DNA from: Caulochytrium protostelioides
Taxonomy: Eukaryota; Chytridiomycota; Caulochytriomycetes; Caulochytriales; Caulochytriaceae
DNA length: 64,000 nucleotides
NCBI GenBank assembly: GCA_003615045.1
Contig: ML014205.1
Span: 1 to 64,000 of the forward strand
Reading direction: 5' to 3'
Under the pieces are notes generated by a model that worked only from the letters and a program-made list of their open reading frames with translations, was not told the DNA's origin and ran no database searches. The position numbers were made by a program, and so were the translations under genes. Positions 1 through 64,000 of this stretch are shown here, piece after piece; the first letter of the stretch is position 1; every line of letters starts with the position of its first letter.

Positions 1-227
1 AAGGGAAATTTACTAGGGCACTATACGGCTAGCGTCTGCATCATATCTGGTATCTGGCGCATGTAATGCTGGGAAAGCTCAATCAATGGCCTCTCGATTT
101 CGCTCAACGCGTGGCTGCATTCTACAGCCTCGTGTCGACTTGGGTCAATGGGCTGAGTGAGACGGCTTTAGATCGGTTGAACCACCAGCATCGAGGTGGG
201 AGGGGGCTTGTTAAGCGGCTGCTTTGC
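1..227. other. Left-edge segment, no gene assigned
   Basis: A plus-strand open frame begins at ATG 66 and runs through this segment into the Fanzor-like remnant that starts at about 228. Its conceptual product matches no family I recognise, and an in-frame stop lies just upstream at 30-32. The other three copies of the remnant sit just downstream of, or a short distance past, a plus-strand gene end. This segment could therefore be the 3' part of a gene that starts before the window, but nothing in the sequence shows it. Confidence 0.3.
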
Positions 228-655
228 AGGCCCACCCTCCATTCATGCACACCATGCCCTCCGGGGTCCCCCACAGAGGCAGTAGTGCATTCCGTTCGTC
301 GGTCGGATGAGCTTGCCGACCACGGGCCGCCGCGGATCTTGCCCGGGGTTGCAGCACCACGCTATCGGTCTGTCGGGTCATGCCAGACGACGTCGGATGG
401 TCAACGCGGCATGGAGACCGCGGTTCACCAACTTGCCGTTCATGGCTTCTGGCGCCGGCGTTGACCGAGGTTCAGGACCACATTCATCTGGGCCTACACC
501 CGGGTGCTGCAGACCGGGTTGACCGGCGTCGGCGCGGTCGGTTGGGCACCCGCCCGGGTCCTGCAGACCGGGTTGACCCGCGTCGGCGCCGTCGGGGGAG
601 CGCCCGACCGGGTCTTGCGGACCGCTCGCAGCTCGAGTCGCAGCAGGTGAAATGT
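228..655 (-). mobile_element. Fanzor/TnpB-like element remnant, copy A
   Basis: This is a 3'-terminal fragment of a Fanzor (eukaryotic TnpB-type, RNA-guided nuclease) element. It starts at the shared terminal motif AGGCCC (228) and is closely similar to copy B over the region 245-530. The minus-strand frame ending at 378-380 reads NGKLVNRGLHAALTI, the counterpart of the RuvC-III motif NHDLNAALNI in copy C. The catalytic Asp codon is GGT (Gly) here (417-419). Upstream in the element's orientation only a 54-bp minisatellite and a segment shared with copy D (about 616-655) remain. No RuvC-I or RuvC-II region is present, so it cannot encode a nuclease. The family assignment rests on motif reading only. 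Confidence 0.6.
501..640. repeat. 54-bp minisatellite inside Fanzor-like copy A
   Basis: Two full units (501-554, 555-608) and a partial third (from 609) each begin CGGGTsyTGC and contain GACCGGGTTGACC or a close variant. The same unit occurs once in copies B and C and in degenerate, interrupted form in copy D (about 63280-63420). Copy number therefore differs between family members. Confidence 0.7.
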
Positions 656-15928: not shown

Positions 15929-16084
15929 GTGACCGCGACCGCCTGCAACTCTCTGCCGGTCCGCCTTTGAACCCCTGACGGGTCTACCAGGCTGCCACTG
16001 TTTTTTCTTTTTTTTTCTTTTATACCTCATTGTCTATTTATCTTTTTTTAATGAACACACGTGACCACGTGTGCTTATATATAT

Positions 16085-16500
16085 AGGCCCAACCTGACCT
16101 GACGCAAACGCCATGCCCTCCGTGGGGCCCTCCGTGGGGCCCTCCAGGGGTCACAGAGGCAGTAGCGCCTTCCGTTCATCGGTCGGATGAGCTTGCCGAC
16201 CACGGGCCGCCGCGGATCTTGCCCGGGGTTGCAGCACCACGCTATCGGTCTGTCGGGTCATGCCAGACGACGTCGGATGGTCAACGCGGCATGGAGACCG
16301 CGGTTCACCAACTTGCCGTTCATGGCTTCTGGCGCCGGCGTTGACCGGGGTTCAGGACCACATTCATCTAGGCCTACACCCGGGTGCTGCAGACCGGGTT
16401 GACCGGCGTCGGCGCGGTCGAGCGGGCGCCCGCCCAGGATGCGGGAGAGATCGGCACGGCCGTCAGGTGCGAGGCAGATGCACCGCGTCTCGTGTTGGCG
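16085..16500 (-). mobile_element. Fanzor/TnpB-like element remnant, copy B
   Basis: Copy B is nearly identical to copy A from about 16150 to 16425. It begins at the same AGGCCC terminus, 156 bp beyond the bZIP stop codon. The minus-strand frame (16258-16503) reads CGPEPRSTPAPEA, then NGKLVNRGLHAALTIRRRLA and a stop. As in copy A the RuvC-III Asp codon is GGT (16297-16299). Only one unit of the 54-bp minisatellite is present, followed by a segment shared with copy D (GCACGGCCGTCAGGT). The terminal CCCTCCGTGGGG segment is triplicated here (about 16117-16151). No RuvC-I or RuvC-II coding region remains, so it is a non-coding relic. Confidence 0.6.
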
Positions 16501-52023: not shown

Positions 52024-52074
52024 TGAATTGCTTCCCGTAAATCTCATAATGCGGTTGAACGCGGGTGCATATGT

Positions 52075-52508
52075 AGGCCGTTCCTCACCTCACGCTGCAC
52101 ACCATGCCCTCCATGGTGCCCCCAGGGGTCCCCCACCGAGGCAGTCACACGTTCGGTTCAGTGTCGGATGAGCTTGCCGATCTCGGGCCGCAGCGGGTCT
52201 TGCTCGGGACTGCGGTACAGCGCTATCGGTCTGGCGGGTAAGGCCAGACGCCGTCGGATGTTCAACGCGGCATTGAGATCGTGGTTCACCAACTTGCCGT
52301 TCATGGCTTCTGGCGCCGGCGTTGACCGGGGTTCAGGACCACATTCATCTGGGCATACACTCGGGTCCTGCGGACCGGGTTGACTGCTGCCGATGCGGTC
52401 GGGTGGGCTTACGCCCTGGGTGCGCGAGGGATCGGCACGACCGTGTCCACTGTGCCCGTGAAAGCGGGGGTAGCGATCGTCACACATTAGTATGCCCGTC
52501 AGACCCAC
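52075..52508 (-). mobile_element. Fanzor/TnpB-like remnant, copy C, C-terminal part
   Basis: This starts at AGGCCG, 51 bp after the preceding gene's stop. The minus-strand frame 52158-52508 is the best preserved C-terminus in the family: VCPDECGPEPRSTPAPEAM, then NGKLVNHDLNAALNIRRRL and a tail ending GKLIRH. The D-L-N-A-A-L-N-I string with a preceding Cys-containing segment is the RuvC-III / zinc-ribbon end of TnpB and Fanzor proteins. The catalytic Asp is intact here (52278-52280). Beyond the stop lies a perfect 7-bp inverted repeat (CACCATG/CATGGTG around GAGGG, minus strand), a candidate for the structured 3' RNA that guides such nucleases. The N-terminal portion is not continuous with it; see the plus-strand fragment. 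Confidence 0.65.
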
Positions 52509-52599
52509 CTTATGGCGCGTCTTGCGGTGAACCCTGCGCGCATGACGTGCGATCGCTTATCGTGCCGCCAGCAGGCAACGAAGCGACCTTCAGGACCCT

Positions 52600-52978
52600 G
52601 ACCACATAGCAGTGGGCGGCCGCCCTGGCGTTTCGCTAGCTGGAAGGCAAGGACCACCATCGACAGGGATGGGATCAGCGAGTGCGCCCACCTCCGGCGC
52701 CAGAAGATGGTGGCTGATGCCGTGCCGACTCTCGAGGCTACCCCCAAAGCAGAGGACCCCTTGGCGGACAACCTCGATATGTACTGCATCCTCGGGAACC
52801 ACCGGGGCCGCACCAACATCTTGGCTATGGAGGGGTCCGACGGCCAGATCGTCAGCTGGAAGCTGAGCTGAAAGCAGTACTATGTGGAAGCCGGCATGAA
52901 GGCCGCCCAAAAGCAGGCCTAGATGTGGCAGCGCCATTTGAAAAAGCTGCAGCAGCAGCTGCCGGTGGTGGGCTCATA
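52600..52978 (+). pseudogene. Fanzor/TnpB-like remnant, copy C, inverted N-terminal/RuvC-I fragment
   Basis: On the plus strand, opposite to the adjoining C-terminal part, a frame reads RFASWKARTTIDRDG, then LADNLDMYCILGNHRGRTNI, MEGSDGQIV, and after a stop KQYYVEAGMKAAQKQ and after another stop MWQRHLKKLQQQL. The same blocks occur on the minus strand of copy D (ILGDDPGRTSIFF, DGQV, KQYYVEAGINVAQKQ, WQRHLKEPLQQL), so they are homologous. Breaks are TGA at 52869-52871, TAG at 52920-52922 and the end stop at 52976. The position of the catalytic Asp of the DPG motif reads His. The head-to-head arrangement implies an inversion or two abutting insertions. Confidence 0.6.
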
Positions 52979-53118
52979 AGGCACAGTCATGTATGTTATA
53001 AAGATAGATATATGGTGAAAGCACACGCGACATCACATACATATGATATCTGAAAGACGCTGGTTAGCATCAAGCGGTCAAATAAATAGTCTTTGTCCAT
53101 GGCTAGAATAATCGCTTG

Positions 53119-59686: not shown

Positions 59687-61534
59687 CAGGGGGCGGTGGA
59701 CACGTAGAAGCTGGATAAGGAAGACGTTGTTCTAGAAAACTGGGCGAATCAGGGGTTGGAGGGTGATCGCCGAGTTGGATGCCGGATGCGTTAACGATGC
59801 CGAGCTCAAGTTCGTAGCGACGGTGCTCGTATCGAAGCGCGATGAGACGGTGGTCATGAACCGAAATACCCGCTCACCCTTCCATGAATAACATGTTCCA
59901 TTTTACGAAAACGCCACGGGACTCATCGTTTCATGCTAAACGCTATTGTTCGCCAACGCAGGGCAAGATGGCGATGTGACATGCGCGCTTACTCGCTGTC
60001 CGTTGTCGCCGGCATCTTCACGCTCGGTGTCGTCGATGCCCAGCAACAGGCGTTCCTTGCCATCGGCCACGGTCGCTGACGGCGTTCAAGACGGTGGCCC
60101 AGATGGCGGCCTCTCCTTCGCCGGATCCTTCTGTCCTCGTCGGCAGGGCCTGCCCCGAGTCGTGACGCTAAAGTCAGCGGAAGCCTCTTACGCCGTGGCG
60201 TCACGGTGCGACGTGAAGCGGTGAAGTTCTGTTCTCCCGCAAGCCGTCACAGGCGCTCTTACGCTCCGACGGCTACCTCGTGTGCAAGTGGTCGCGAAGA
60301 AATGATACCCGTACTGGTCGGCACGGACCCTCCGCGTCGCACTGACCAGCCGCGGGCGGCCTGACTTGGAAGGTTGTCGAGGAAAAATAAAATCTGGGCT
60401 GACGGGAGGGGGTCTTCGGTGGCGCATGCCACGCGGTGAAGGGATGTGGATGCAGGTGCAGACTCGAGAGGATGCCGAGGCACCAGCGCCACGCGGCCAT
60501 CACGGCGGCCAGGTACGTAATGACGGGACGGTCGGCGTCGCCGTCCTGCAGCGGTAACGGCAGCCCGGCGTTTGCTGGTCGCTACACGGGGTTCTGGAGC
60601 TCATCCAGTACGCACGCCGTCTGGTGCGGCGGGAGCGGCCTTGACGGCGGATCGCGGAAGTCGGCGGCCTTGGGCGCGGCGAGCACACCCGGCCGCTTGG
60701 GGACGAGCTGCAGGCCGGCGGGCGAGGCCGAGACATCGTGGTTGATCTGAGAGTCAACTGGCATCATGAAAACGGAGCCCATCCGGGCGACCGGGCCGAG
60801 CCGGTTCGCCAGCAGCGCCGTGACCACCGTCGGCTGGTGCGACAGCATTCTAACCCCTTCCCAGTTTTGAGCTTGGTGGAGATCGCGGCAGCAACGCCGC
60901 GTACATGAACATGAACTTGCCGGTTCATCTCGGAGGTACGCCAGCAAACGGACCTCCCGCGTAATAATCCCTTTGAATCCACCTTGATGGAAAAGGTGCT
61001 CCATCTCACCCTGGCGCCCCCCGAGTCGTCAGTCTTGGGCGTTCGTCTTTGGTGCCACGATCGTTCGTCATCATATCATCCGCTCTTCCGGTGAGGCGGC
61101 TCGGTGGTACAGTCGCGCGCGCGCGCTGAACAGCGAAACGGCAAAGCTGCCGCTTGCGTGGTCGGATACGTCCGACGTGCCCGACGCGCCGGCGCCTGTG
61201 GCGGGTCGGACGGCGCCCGTGCCGGCGCCCGTGGGGGCCGTGTCGTCGCCGGCCCGGTCGTGGGAGCGGTAACGAGGGACCATCGAGGGCGATGATCGCA
61301 GGCCATCCCACGGCCATGGCCAGGGTAGGACCGGCTGAAGCGTGAAGAGTGTGGCGCGATGACTCGTCACTGACGAGCGTGGAATCGATCCACGGCGACC
61401 CCACGTGGCGCGTCGTAGTGCCATGCCGCTACCCGTGACCCGCTCTCGACCATCGTGGCCCGTTGCCCGTGGATCGTCCGCTTGTCGTCGGACCGCCCTC
61501 TTCGCTGAGCTGGTGCAGTGTGTGCGTTCACGTC
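59687..61534. other. Divergent 1.8-kb region between the cyclin and PPP phosphatase genes
   Basis: The region holds the promoters of both flanking genes and is partly AT-richer (about 59850-59950). A minus-strand frame (60582-61004, 140 residues from an ATG) has a less skewed composition than the usual spurious frames here, but I recognise nothing in it. No RNA gene is seen. Confidence 0.45.
60582..61004 (-). CDS. Hypothetical small ORF, possibly spurious or decayed
   Basis: This 140-residue frame starts with ATG (MEHLFHQGGFKGIITREV). It contains a balanced set of residues rather than the Arg/Ala/Pro bias of shadow frames, which is the only reason to list it. There is no recognisable domain, signal peptide or membrane segment. 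It could be an exon of an unidentified gene or debris of a mobile element. Confidence 0.15.
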   Translation of the reverse strand: MEHLFHQGGFKGIITREVRLLAYLRDEPASSCSCTRRCCRDLHQAQNWEGVRMLSHQPTVVTALLANRLGPVARMGSVFMMPVDSQINHDVSASPAGLQLVPKRPGVLAAPKAADFRDPPSRPLPPHQTACVLDELQNPV

Positions 61535-62947
61535 ATGGCTCATCCACCCCGCCACCGTACCACATCTCCGCACTGTTCTCCGGCTGACCCCTACGCTTGC
61601 TCCGACGACGAGAGCGACAGCCCGACCTCGACGACGGCGCTGCGAGGCGCTGCTGCGGGTGCCGTCGAATCGGGTCTTCCATCTGACAACCGCAAGCCGG
61701 CTCGCCGCCTACTCGCCATGCCACGCTTCCGCACGTGGGTCGCGGCACTGCTCCTGACCTGCGTTTACTTTGGCTGGCGCTTGCACTCGCTCAGATACGA
61801 GTCCGTCCCTGATGCGCAGGTCGATACCGTATCGGAGCTGCAGCATCAAAAATCTTTGATTCGTGAGACAACCACCCTCGCAGCCCAGGCGCAGCCGGCG
61901 CCCGATCGGTCGGATCACCTGGCGGCGTACACGCCCGTCACGCCGTCACGACTTGAAGACGACAGGAAGGGTCAAGCGAGTGTACCTCATGCCCCTAGCA
62001 ACGACCAGGCCGTGGCCGCCGCCGCTGCTGATGCCAATGCTGCTGCCGCTGAAGATGCTGAAACCGCTGAAGCTGCTGGTGTGGAGCCGCCGTCGCCGCC
62101 GGCCGGCCCCATCGTCCCGACGCGCCCTGGCGCGTGGCGTATCTTAGCAATCGGCGATCTTCACGGCGACTGGATGCATGCCATCAAATCGCTGCGTACC
62201 GCGGGCGTCATTGATGCGAAGCACAATTGGATTGCGGGCGATGCAACATTTGTGCAGACCGGCGATATCGTGGACAGGGGTGATGACACCATTCGCCTAT
62301 ACGAGTTGATGCGCAAGCTGACTCAGCAAGCGCGCGCCGCTGGCGGCGAAGTCCGGCAGCTGCTCGGCAACCACGAGGTGATGAATATGGAGGGCGATCT
62401 GCGATACGTGACGCCGGGCGACGTCGCAAAAGCCGGTGGCGACGAAGCCCGTCGGCTGCTGTGGTCCAAGCAGGGCTGGATCGGGCAGTATCTGCGTGAG
62501 CTCAACATCACGACGATGGTCCACGGCCACGTGTTTGTCCACGGTGGCGTCAATGTCGATTGGGCCAAGCAAGGGTTGGATGTGATCAATATGCTCGGCC
62601 GCGTGCTGCTGCAGGCGGAACAACAGTTCATGTTCGACCACTCGATGCTGCACGACCCCCACGGCCCGCTGTGGTACCGTGGCTACGCCTTGGATCCGGA
62701 GCCGGTCGCCTGCCGCAATGTCGAGGAAGCGCTCGGTTATCTGGGCGCGAAGCGAATCGTGATGGGCCATACGCCGCAGCTCGAGACTGGCAAGATCTTG
62801 TCGCGCTGCGATGGCCGTATTCTCATTATCGACATCGGCATCAGCCAAGTCTATGGTGGGCATACGGGTGCCGTCGAAATTACGCCGACCACTGTCGAGG
62901 CCATCTATGTTGGGGGTCGTCAGCGCTTGATTGAGGATGGCGTTTAA
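61535..62947 (+). CDS. Membrane-anchored Shewanella-like PPP phosphatase (calcineurin-type metallophosphoesterase)
   Basis: The 470-residue protein has a cytosolic-looking N-terminus and one membrane segment (about residues 65-85, TWVAALLLTCVYFGWRL). A Pro/Ala-rich stalk of about 100 residues leads to a metallophosphoesterase domain. PPP motifs in order are GDLHGDW (about 207-213), FVQTGDIVDRGDDT, LLGNHEVMNMEGD, VHGHVFVHGGVN and IVMGHTPQ near the end, so all six metal ligands are present. The MNMEGDLRYV context and the HGGV/MGHTP spacing are those of the SLP subfamily known from bacteria, plants, protists and some fungi. The topology suggests a type II protein with the catalytic domain in the secretory lumen or outside. 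The open frame extends to 61463 from a non-ATG codon; the first ATG, 61535, is used. Fanzor remnant D starts 9 bp after the stop. Confidence 0.85.
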   Translation: MAHPPRHRTTSPHCSPADPYACSDDESDSPTSTTALRGAAAGAVESGLPSDNRKPARRLLAMPRFRTWVAALLLTCVYFGWRLHSLRYESVPDAQVDTVSELQHQKSLIRETTTLAAQAQPAPDRSDHLAAYTPVTPSRLEDDRKGQASVPHAPSNDQAVAAAAADANAAAAEDAETAEAAGVEPPSPPAGPIVPTRPGAWRILAIGDLHGDWMHAIKSLRTAGVIDAKHNWIAGDATFVQTGDIVDRGDDTIRLYELMRKLTQQARAAGGEVRQLLGNHEVMNMEGDLRYVTPGDVAKAGGDEARRLLWSKQGWIGQYLRELNITTMVHGHVFVHGGVNVDWAKQGLDVINMLGRVLLQAEQQFMFDHSMLHDPHGPLWYRGYALDPEPVACRNVEEALGYLGAKRIVMGHTPQLETGKILSRCDGRILIIDIGISQVYGGHTGAVEITPTTVEAIYVGGRQRLIEDGV

Positions 62948-62956
62948 AGAATCTGT

Positions 62957-64000
62957 AGGCCCACCCTCCCCTCCCCTTACCGACCCAACACGCACACCAT
63001 GCCCTCCGTGGTGCCCCCAGGGGTTCCCCAGTACACATTCGAATCAGTGTCGGGTGAGCTTGCCGACCCTTGGGCTGCAGGGGAGCTTGCCCGGGGTTGC
63101 GGCATAACGCCTCCGGTCTGACGGGTAAGGCCGGACCGCGTCGGATGTAAACTCGGCATTGAGATCGCGGTTCACAAGCTTGCCGTTGGTGGCTTCACAA
63201 CACCGCAAACCTCGGACCACGGCCCCCTGGCGTCGGTGTGGACCGGATTTCGGAACCACATTTGCCTCGGCAGTCACCCAGATCTTGCAGACCCGGTTGA
63301 CCGACGTCGGCGCTGTCGGTGGGACGCCCGTCCTGCGGACCGCTCGCAGCTCGAGTCGCAGCAGGTGAAATGAGGGTCCTGCGGACCAGGTTGGCCGACG
63401 TCGGCTCGGCCGGGGGAGCGCCCGCCCGGGACGCGCGAGAGATCCGCACGGCCGTCAGGTCCCGAGATCGCACTTTGGTCTGGATTTCATTCGTCCTGAC
63501 ATGCACTTGGGTCGTCAGGAACTCGTCGACCAGGACTGTGCGGAACTGCTGGGCGCACGCCTTTGGGGCTCACCGCCGACAGCTGCTGCAGCGGCTCTTT
63601 CAAATGGCGCTGCCACGTCTCTGACTGCTTTTGCGCGACATTGATGCCGGCTTCCACATAGTATTGCTTTTCGGACCTGCCCATCGGACCGCTTCATGAC
63701 CATAAAGAAGATGCTGGTGCGGCCTGGGTCGTCCCCGAGAATACAGTGCTGATTCAGGCTCTCTGCCGAAGCTTTCTTGTTCTGATCGAGGCTGTCTCCC
63801 AAGGGGTTCTCAGGATGGCGTTTAGCAGCAAGCTGCGTGATCGGCGCGGGCATTATAAACGAGTGGGCTGGCTGAACCGGCGAAAACTTTTCTTTCAGGA
63901 CCTATTCTTCCTGCTGGCATATCACATTTATGATACAGGCGAGCCATTGAAGGTTGAACCGTCTTGCTTTGATCAGCTCCCCTTACGATGTACAGGTGGC
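62957..64000 (-). pseudogene. Fanzor/TnpB-like element remnant, copy D (extends past the window)
   Basis: This is the longest copy. It begins at AGGCCC, 9 bp after the phosphatase stop. Reading along the minus strand from the window edge: RRFNLQWLACIINVICQQEE, a TAG (63902-63904), then VLKEKFSPVQPAHSFI, KRHPENPLGDSLDQNKKAS, a RuvC-I-like CILGDDPGRTSIFFMV (Asp codon 63728-63730), a frameshifting deletion near 63680, then KQYYVEAGINVAQKQ and WQRHLKEPLQQLSAV. After a minisatellite-bearing segment comes the C-terminus NGKLVNRDLNAEF (Asp codon 63164-63166), preceded by Cys-Cys, ending GKLTRH. The RuvC-II region is missing between about 63280 and 63490. Both outer catalytic Asp are retained, but stops, frameshift and deletion make it a pseudogene. 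The family assignment is by motif reading. Confidence 0.62.

Follow-up and report, generated by a model that had tools for sequence, protein, structure and literature searches.

The Fanzor1 nucleases were defined in 2013 by features that include a C4 zinc finger lying between the RuvC-II and the RuvC-III motifs (PMC3627910), and a published Fanzor search pattern likewise demands this finger, which the same source places in "many" Fanzors, not all (PMC10711439). The Fanzor fingerprint described there consists of DPG at RuvC-I combined with a Glu at an alternative position, and Fanzor copy numbers reach up to hundreds (PMC10711439). CRe-1/2/3 of Chlamydomonas reinhardtii are Fanzor1 elements that have been assigned to Helitron2, with 3' ends preserved in nearly all copies and with duplications of 7-19 bp that occur mainly in 5'-truncated ones (PMC3627910). 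Here, the window (the whole stretch of DNA analysed, positions 1 to 64,000 of contig ML014205.1 of Caulochytrium protostelioides, assembly GCA_003615045.1) carries at its right edge, on the minus strand, an 865-bp segment (62947-63811) that is 5'-truncated, internally deleted and decayed. This segment is very probably a dead mobile-element copy, and the only gene found for that element would have encoded an RNA-guided DNA endonuclease of the Fanzor1 type that lacked a zinc finger.

The segment was recognised with an element profile derived from further members of its repeat family and trimmed of flanking sequence, which nhmmer matched in three pieces (E 1.8e-67, 1.3e-48 and 3.6e-97) spanning approximately profile positions 1201-2281; positions 63825-64000 of the window are flank, outside the element. 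The sequence-only reading had described a RuvC-I-like and then a RuvC-III-like block on the minus strand, with the middle deleted, and had taken them for a decayed Fanzor gene. Both blocks are present in that order, LGDDPGRTSIFF (RuvC-I) in frame 63515-63901 and NGKLVNRDLNAEF (RuvC-III) in frame 63044-63454, with the KQYYVEAG/WQRHL block in frame 63487-63693; by the profile scores, their presence is well outside what chance would give. The deletion holds in part: some 275 profile positions (1474 to 1749) are gone between RuvC-I and RuvC-II, but the RuvC-II motif VLVDEFLTTQ is kept in another frame, and all three catalytic codons of the split RuvC survive (Table 1). The gene is dead, because its start is missing and the frames shift between blocks.

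Relatives of the encoded protein were gathered by a search with one copy of the repeat, and 58 were aligned for motif counts. The D-E-D triad of the split RuvC is found in all 58 and DPG at RuvC-I in 56, as well as in the window copy. In the aligned relatives, the RuvC-II Glu takes the alternative position, six residues ahead of where the zinc finger would be, and a DEFRTT-type motif is followed by HAxx or similar in place of CxxC; the state typical of prokaryotic TnpB as described for IS200/IS605 and IS607 (D-hydrophobic-G, with the Glu ~50 residues before the zinc finger) is not that of the relatives. A tandem-repeat linker occupies the Fanzor zinc-finger site, and relatives free of this linker are also without the finger. 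The metagenome proteins P0001-P0003 share 47-50% identity with the read-through of one copy, with 78-82% of the length covered, and these and the other metagenome relatives (P0011-P0062) are predicted as single open reading frames, the seven nearest being 617-640 aa long. Since sequence searches of the PDB with the fragment, the copy profile, P0001, P0006 and the relatives' profile gave no relevant match, a structure comparison was used: Fanzor1 structures are the top matches, by a wide margin, of the predicted structure of the full-length relative P0001, and the Fanzor1 fold spans the whole chain of that model, which represents a relative rather than the window copy. The triad, the fingerprint in the relatives and the predicted fold together support the reading of the window gene as a decayed Fanzor.

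The window copy is flanked by an exact 13-bp direct repeat (Table 1). The length of the duplication is given as 9 to 13 bp because its TAAA part could be derived from the element's tail. Joining the flanks yields an empty site in which the plus-strand open reading frame at 61439-62947 (a Metallophos match, E 8.3e-14) formerly ended in GTT TAG, where it now ends in GTT TAA. Mismatched control pairs from 61 testable copies included none sharing more than 10 bp, and in gapped alignment a score of at least 11 is expected 0.03 times per 61, compared with 13 for the window copy. No clear target-site duplication was seen at 7 further loci, for which there was no control, and none was seen across the outer flanks of L021, L047, L063 and L081, four loci in each of which two copies lie head-to-head.

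Downstream of the stop codon, the element ends in ~97 bp of non-coding sequence whose place and length would suit a putative omega-RNA scaffold, known Fz1 omega RNAs being 75-150 nt long (PMC11423790). The live protein would have bound an omega RNA transcribed from this 3' end and would have cut DNA matching the guide of that RNA. The mean single-fold z of the 3' non-coding end is ~ -1.0 over 46 copies.

Several observations weigh against this identification. Between RuvC-II and RuvC-III, both CxxC pairs of a C4 zinc finger are present in none of the 58 aligned relatives and the first pair in one; identity to the solved Fanzors is just 13-16%; RNAalifold found neither structure nor covariation in the 3' non-coding end of 46 of 53 copies (7 aberrant copies were left out), and a cropped hairpin from the same 46 copies gave no covariation either; and a clear target-site duplication was found in one of the 61 testable copies, that of the window, the rest showing no excess over mismatched pairs. 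PF07282 has no match in the genome and none in the two window pieces scanned, is sub-threshold in two other copies and in P0001-P0003, and appears in precomputed annotation on 4 of 60 relatives, while Pfam PF26935 is precomputed on many of them. A failure of Fanzor and TnpB profile searches had been named beforehand as grounds for abandoning the Fanzor assignment; with PF07282 this outcome was obtained genome-wide, yet the assignment is supported otherwise, and such a refutation test would have misled. That the gene belongs instead to a distinct eukaryotic family of RuvC nucleases whose DPG/DEF/RD motifs are convergent, as could be argued from a zinc ribbon complete in 0 of 58 relatives, PF07282 scores below cut-off in copies and P0001-P0003, and the lack of a sequence match to solved Fanzors, is most improbable beside the triad, the fingerprint and the predicted fold. 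Judged from the aligned sequences, this family no longer carries the zinc finger on which the first definition of Fanzors rested. Among the relatives, P0006, P0008 and their kin have a long insert ahead of RuvC-I, and P0006 has a sub-threshold Pfam match to SAP; in viral contigs compared with the relatives' alignment, 409 stretches fit a pattern and none was confirmed.

Table 1. Features of the window copy and other copies of its family (window coordinates)
Feature	Position	Strand	Basis or remark
Decayed Fanzor1 element copy	62947..63811	-	nhmmer with element profile (limits 62942-63815); exact ends from flanking repeat
13-bp target-site duplication, element 5' side	63812..63824	.	Flanking repeat; TAAACGCCATCCT as minus-strand reading
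13-bp target-site duplication, element 3' side	62934..62946	.	Flanking repeat; overlaps phosphoesterase stop codon
RuvC-I Asp codon GAC, DPGR motif	63728..63730	-	Codon read in window copy
RuvC-II Glu codon GAG, VDEFLTT motif	63522..63524	-	Frame differs from RuvC-I and RuvC-III
RuvC-III Asp codon GAT, NRDLNA motif	63164..63166	-	Codon read in window copy
Junction left by the internal deletion, between profile 1474 and 1749	63559..63563	-	Element profile; extra sequence here in other copies
Tandem-repeat-derived linker, RuvC-II to RuvC-III (approximate limits)	63280..63430	-	Profile 1882-1937 matched twice, overlapping hits; not in C226 copy
Non-coding 3' end beyond the stop codon, ~97 bp	62947..63043	-	Would suit an omega-RNA scaffold; no support from covariation
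Family copy, profile 946-1478	52575..52986	+	Element profile
Family copy, profile 1856-2296	52039..52444	-	Element profile; head-to-head with 52575..52986 copy, 130 bp between
Family copy, profile 1838-2303	16025..16483	-	Element profile
Family copy, profile 1875-2265	223..618	-	Element profile

Within its own high-G+C genome, the segment recurs as a dispersed repeat, with at least 75 matches (40 of 596 first-look candidates scored) and at least 150 matches for each of two protein pieces (150 of 229 and 150 of 670 candidates scored). When up to 3 mismatches are allowed, a 22-mer at RuvC-III has 476 sites in the 20.9-Mb genome (control, 0); because it recovers three of the four window copies containing that region and misses the other, the true number of sites is probably above 476. 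Five copies lie within the window, counting that at 62947-63811, and Rfam and tRNA scans of the 64 kb gave no match. The suggestion that an intact source copy might exist elsewhere in the genome was not borne out by a search with P0001, which gave at least 93 matches (70 of 1209 candidates scored); the best match among those scored (C226:11032-12120, residues 252-616) contains one stop and is 5'-truncated. This copy (L080, G000:C226:9800-13300) carries NDPGR, VDEFRT and SRDLNAA in a single open stretch with a stop upstream, and belongs to a divergent subfamily without the tandem-repeat linker that other copies have between RuvC-II and RuvC-III. Elsewhere in the family, L036 and L039 are 99% identical across 516 bp yet diverge abruptly in the 3' non-coding end, a difference that may reflect recombination or template switching; L078 holds (about 1480-2389), within a Fanzor copy, a reverse-transcriptase fragment that by eye resembles Ty3/gypsy pol; and the annotated C. 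protostelioides protein P0004 joins a Fanzor fragment to ~400 other residues, through either a gene-model error or exon capture.

The shape of the copies was examined in fetched loci that had been picked because they matched the window copy or, at a later stage, 5' queries; the proportions are therefore not those of a random sample. Merging left 110 unique pieces, of which 76 extend to the 3' end (profile >=2230), and 13 of the 34 that fall short are cut by the locus end. The starts of the 3'-complete pieces are ragged, with 3 at profile positions 1-60, 9 at 61-500, 11 at 501-1000, 21 at 1001-1500, 26 at 1501-2000 and 6 later (3 of the 76 are cut by the locus start). Several copies share a 5' terminus, ~290 bp ahead of the ATG: the 5' query had 14 matches, itself included, and four of them begin at query position 63-64, two at 82-83 and one at 95, and CCTATATA stands between this terminus and the ATG in five of seven aligned copies. 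Internal-deletion derivatives join the 5' end straight to the RuvC and 3' parts (L097) or the 5' region to profile position 1557 (L101). The full element is about 2.5 kb long, as assembled from parts of several copies, none of those fetched being whole from end to end, and comprises the 5' terminus, a TATA box, an open reading frame of very roughly 620-720 codons and a 3' non-coding end of ~100 bp.

Mean divergence of the family from the majority base is 15%. Decay of the CpG or repeat-induced point mutation type was rejected, C>T being 0.082 at CpG and 0.081 elsewhere, as was a shared intron or programmed frameshift, since the frame breaks sit at different places across copies; with break points varying in this way, decay suffices for the broken frames. 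Diversity at codon positions 1, 2 and 3 is 0.225, 0.200 and 0.237 (3>2, p = 2.7e-4; 1>2, p = 0.008; 3>1 unclear, p = 0.14; a guide only, as sites are not independent), and from these slight differences it follows that most changes postdate insertion and that selection on the source genes left a slight mark.

The common 3' ends, the ragged 5' ends and the duplication at a truncated copy argue that copying was initiated at the 3' end. The element would have been non-autonomous and copied in trans, the process beginning at the 3' end and mostly halting early. Target-primed reverse transcription by a long interspersed nuclear element (LINE) is the slightly favoured machine, although tentatively so. 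Copies show LINE-like 5' truncation, and two LINE-type loci (L077 and L075) with reverse transcriptase and endonuclease-like domains in long open frames are present in the genome; the tail is A/T-rich with no clean poly(A), and 3' junctions vary within it. Counting against a LINE are the few reverse-transcriptase matches in the genome (19 of all types), the lack of a common 3' end between the tails of 10 copies and 6 reverse-transcriptase loci (best E 0.008, inside L075 on the other strand) and the position of the 5' terminus ahead of the TATA box. The idea that the last 440 bp of L077 are a LINE tail was given up, since this stretch is found alone elsewhere.

That last position, shared by several copies, would suit copying at the DNA level, and by analogy the copies may be non-autonomous Helitron2-like elements, spread by rolling-circle copying from the 3' end that stops early, as proposed for CRe-1/2/3, a possible explanation if a somewhat less probable one. 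Traits of CRe-1/2/3 recur in the family (5' truncation, internal deletions and kept 3' ends; PMC3627910), and the two-ended copy L097 is without a convincing target-site duplication, like full-ended CRe copies. The window copy, however, has no TTTT ahead of its 5' duplication, unlike CRe, the 3' junctions are variable, and Helitron_like_N (PF14214) gave no match in the genome, a weak negative in that no positive control responded. It is unlikely that the family is a cut-and-paste DNA transposon with inverted repeats whose ragged 5' ends reflect decay, on the model of Spu-1 of Spizellomyces: the element that houses the studied chytrid Fanzor1 is 2.1 kb long, ends in terminal inverted repeats of 33 bp and has putative TA duplications (PMC3627910), and the internal-deletion derivatives recall the Spu-1 "ghost" loci (PMC10432273), but comparing the two ends of L097, the one copy tested, gave no terminal inverted repeat (best local score 6), decay should fray both ends whereas 3' ends are kept in most pieces, and the window duplication lies at a truncated 5' end and is not of 2 bp.

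The four head-to-head pairs have their 5' ends within 30 bp of each other and both 3' ends outward, and their junctions all differ (approximately 1869/1897 in L021, 1223/1222 in L047, 230/225 in L063 and 787 in L081). The same list holds tandem (L043, L067) and tail-to-tail (L066) pairs, and its two remaining head-to-head entries are doubtful, L040 being an overlap and L052 involving a fragment of 62 bp. It is highly unlikely that the zinc-finger-less lineage spread through its own nuclease, with a reverse transcriptase copying element RNA from the omega-RNA-bearing 3' end at Fanzor-made breaks and head-to-head pairs marking two-sided insertions at one break.

Searches that require PF07282 or the zinc finger, such as the pattern described in PMC10711439, miss most of this clade, and counts of eukaryotic RNA-guided nucleases made in that way would be too low. 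P0001 and its kin, as natural proteins of full length, are candidates for zinc-finger-less Fanzors, and the sites, hundreds of them across 21 Mb of genome, form a record of element spread that bears on whether Fanzor aids the multiplication of its carrier. A limited literature search (including the portions consulted of PMC10711439, PMC3627910, PMC10432273, PMC11423790 and PMC6784888) did not meet a zinc-finger-less Fanzor1 clade, and returned no paper treating Fanzor and Caulochytrium together.

Compared with known systems, the metagenome proteins P0001-P0003 and P0011-P0062 belong to the same gene lineage as the present family and have no complete zinc finger. SpuFz1, the Fanzor1 of the chytrid Spizellomyces punctatus, is ~15% identical to the present family and keeps a CCCC zinc finger (PMC10432273) that the family lacks, and its Spu-1 element has inverted repeats (PMC3627910, PMC10432273), whereas none was found in L097 and copies here are mostly truncated. 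CRe-1/2/3 and the present family have in common that copies are truncated at the 5' end, carry internal deletions, keep their 3' ends and show duplications of variable length (PMC3627910), the last being clear here in 1 of 61 copies. The CRe ends match known Helitrons, whereas no Helitron partner was found here (a weak result, for the reason given above), and CRe genes differ in having 5-10 exons (PMC3627910). CRe-1 is young, being 98% identical to its consensus, whereas the divergence of the Caulochytrium family marks it as old.
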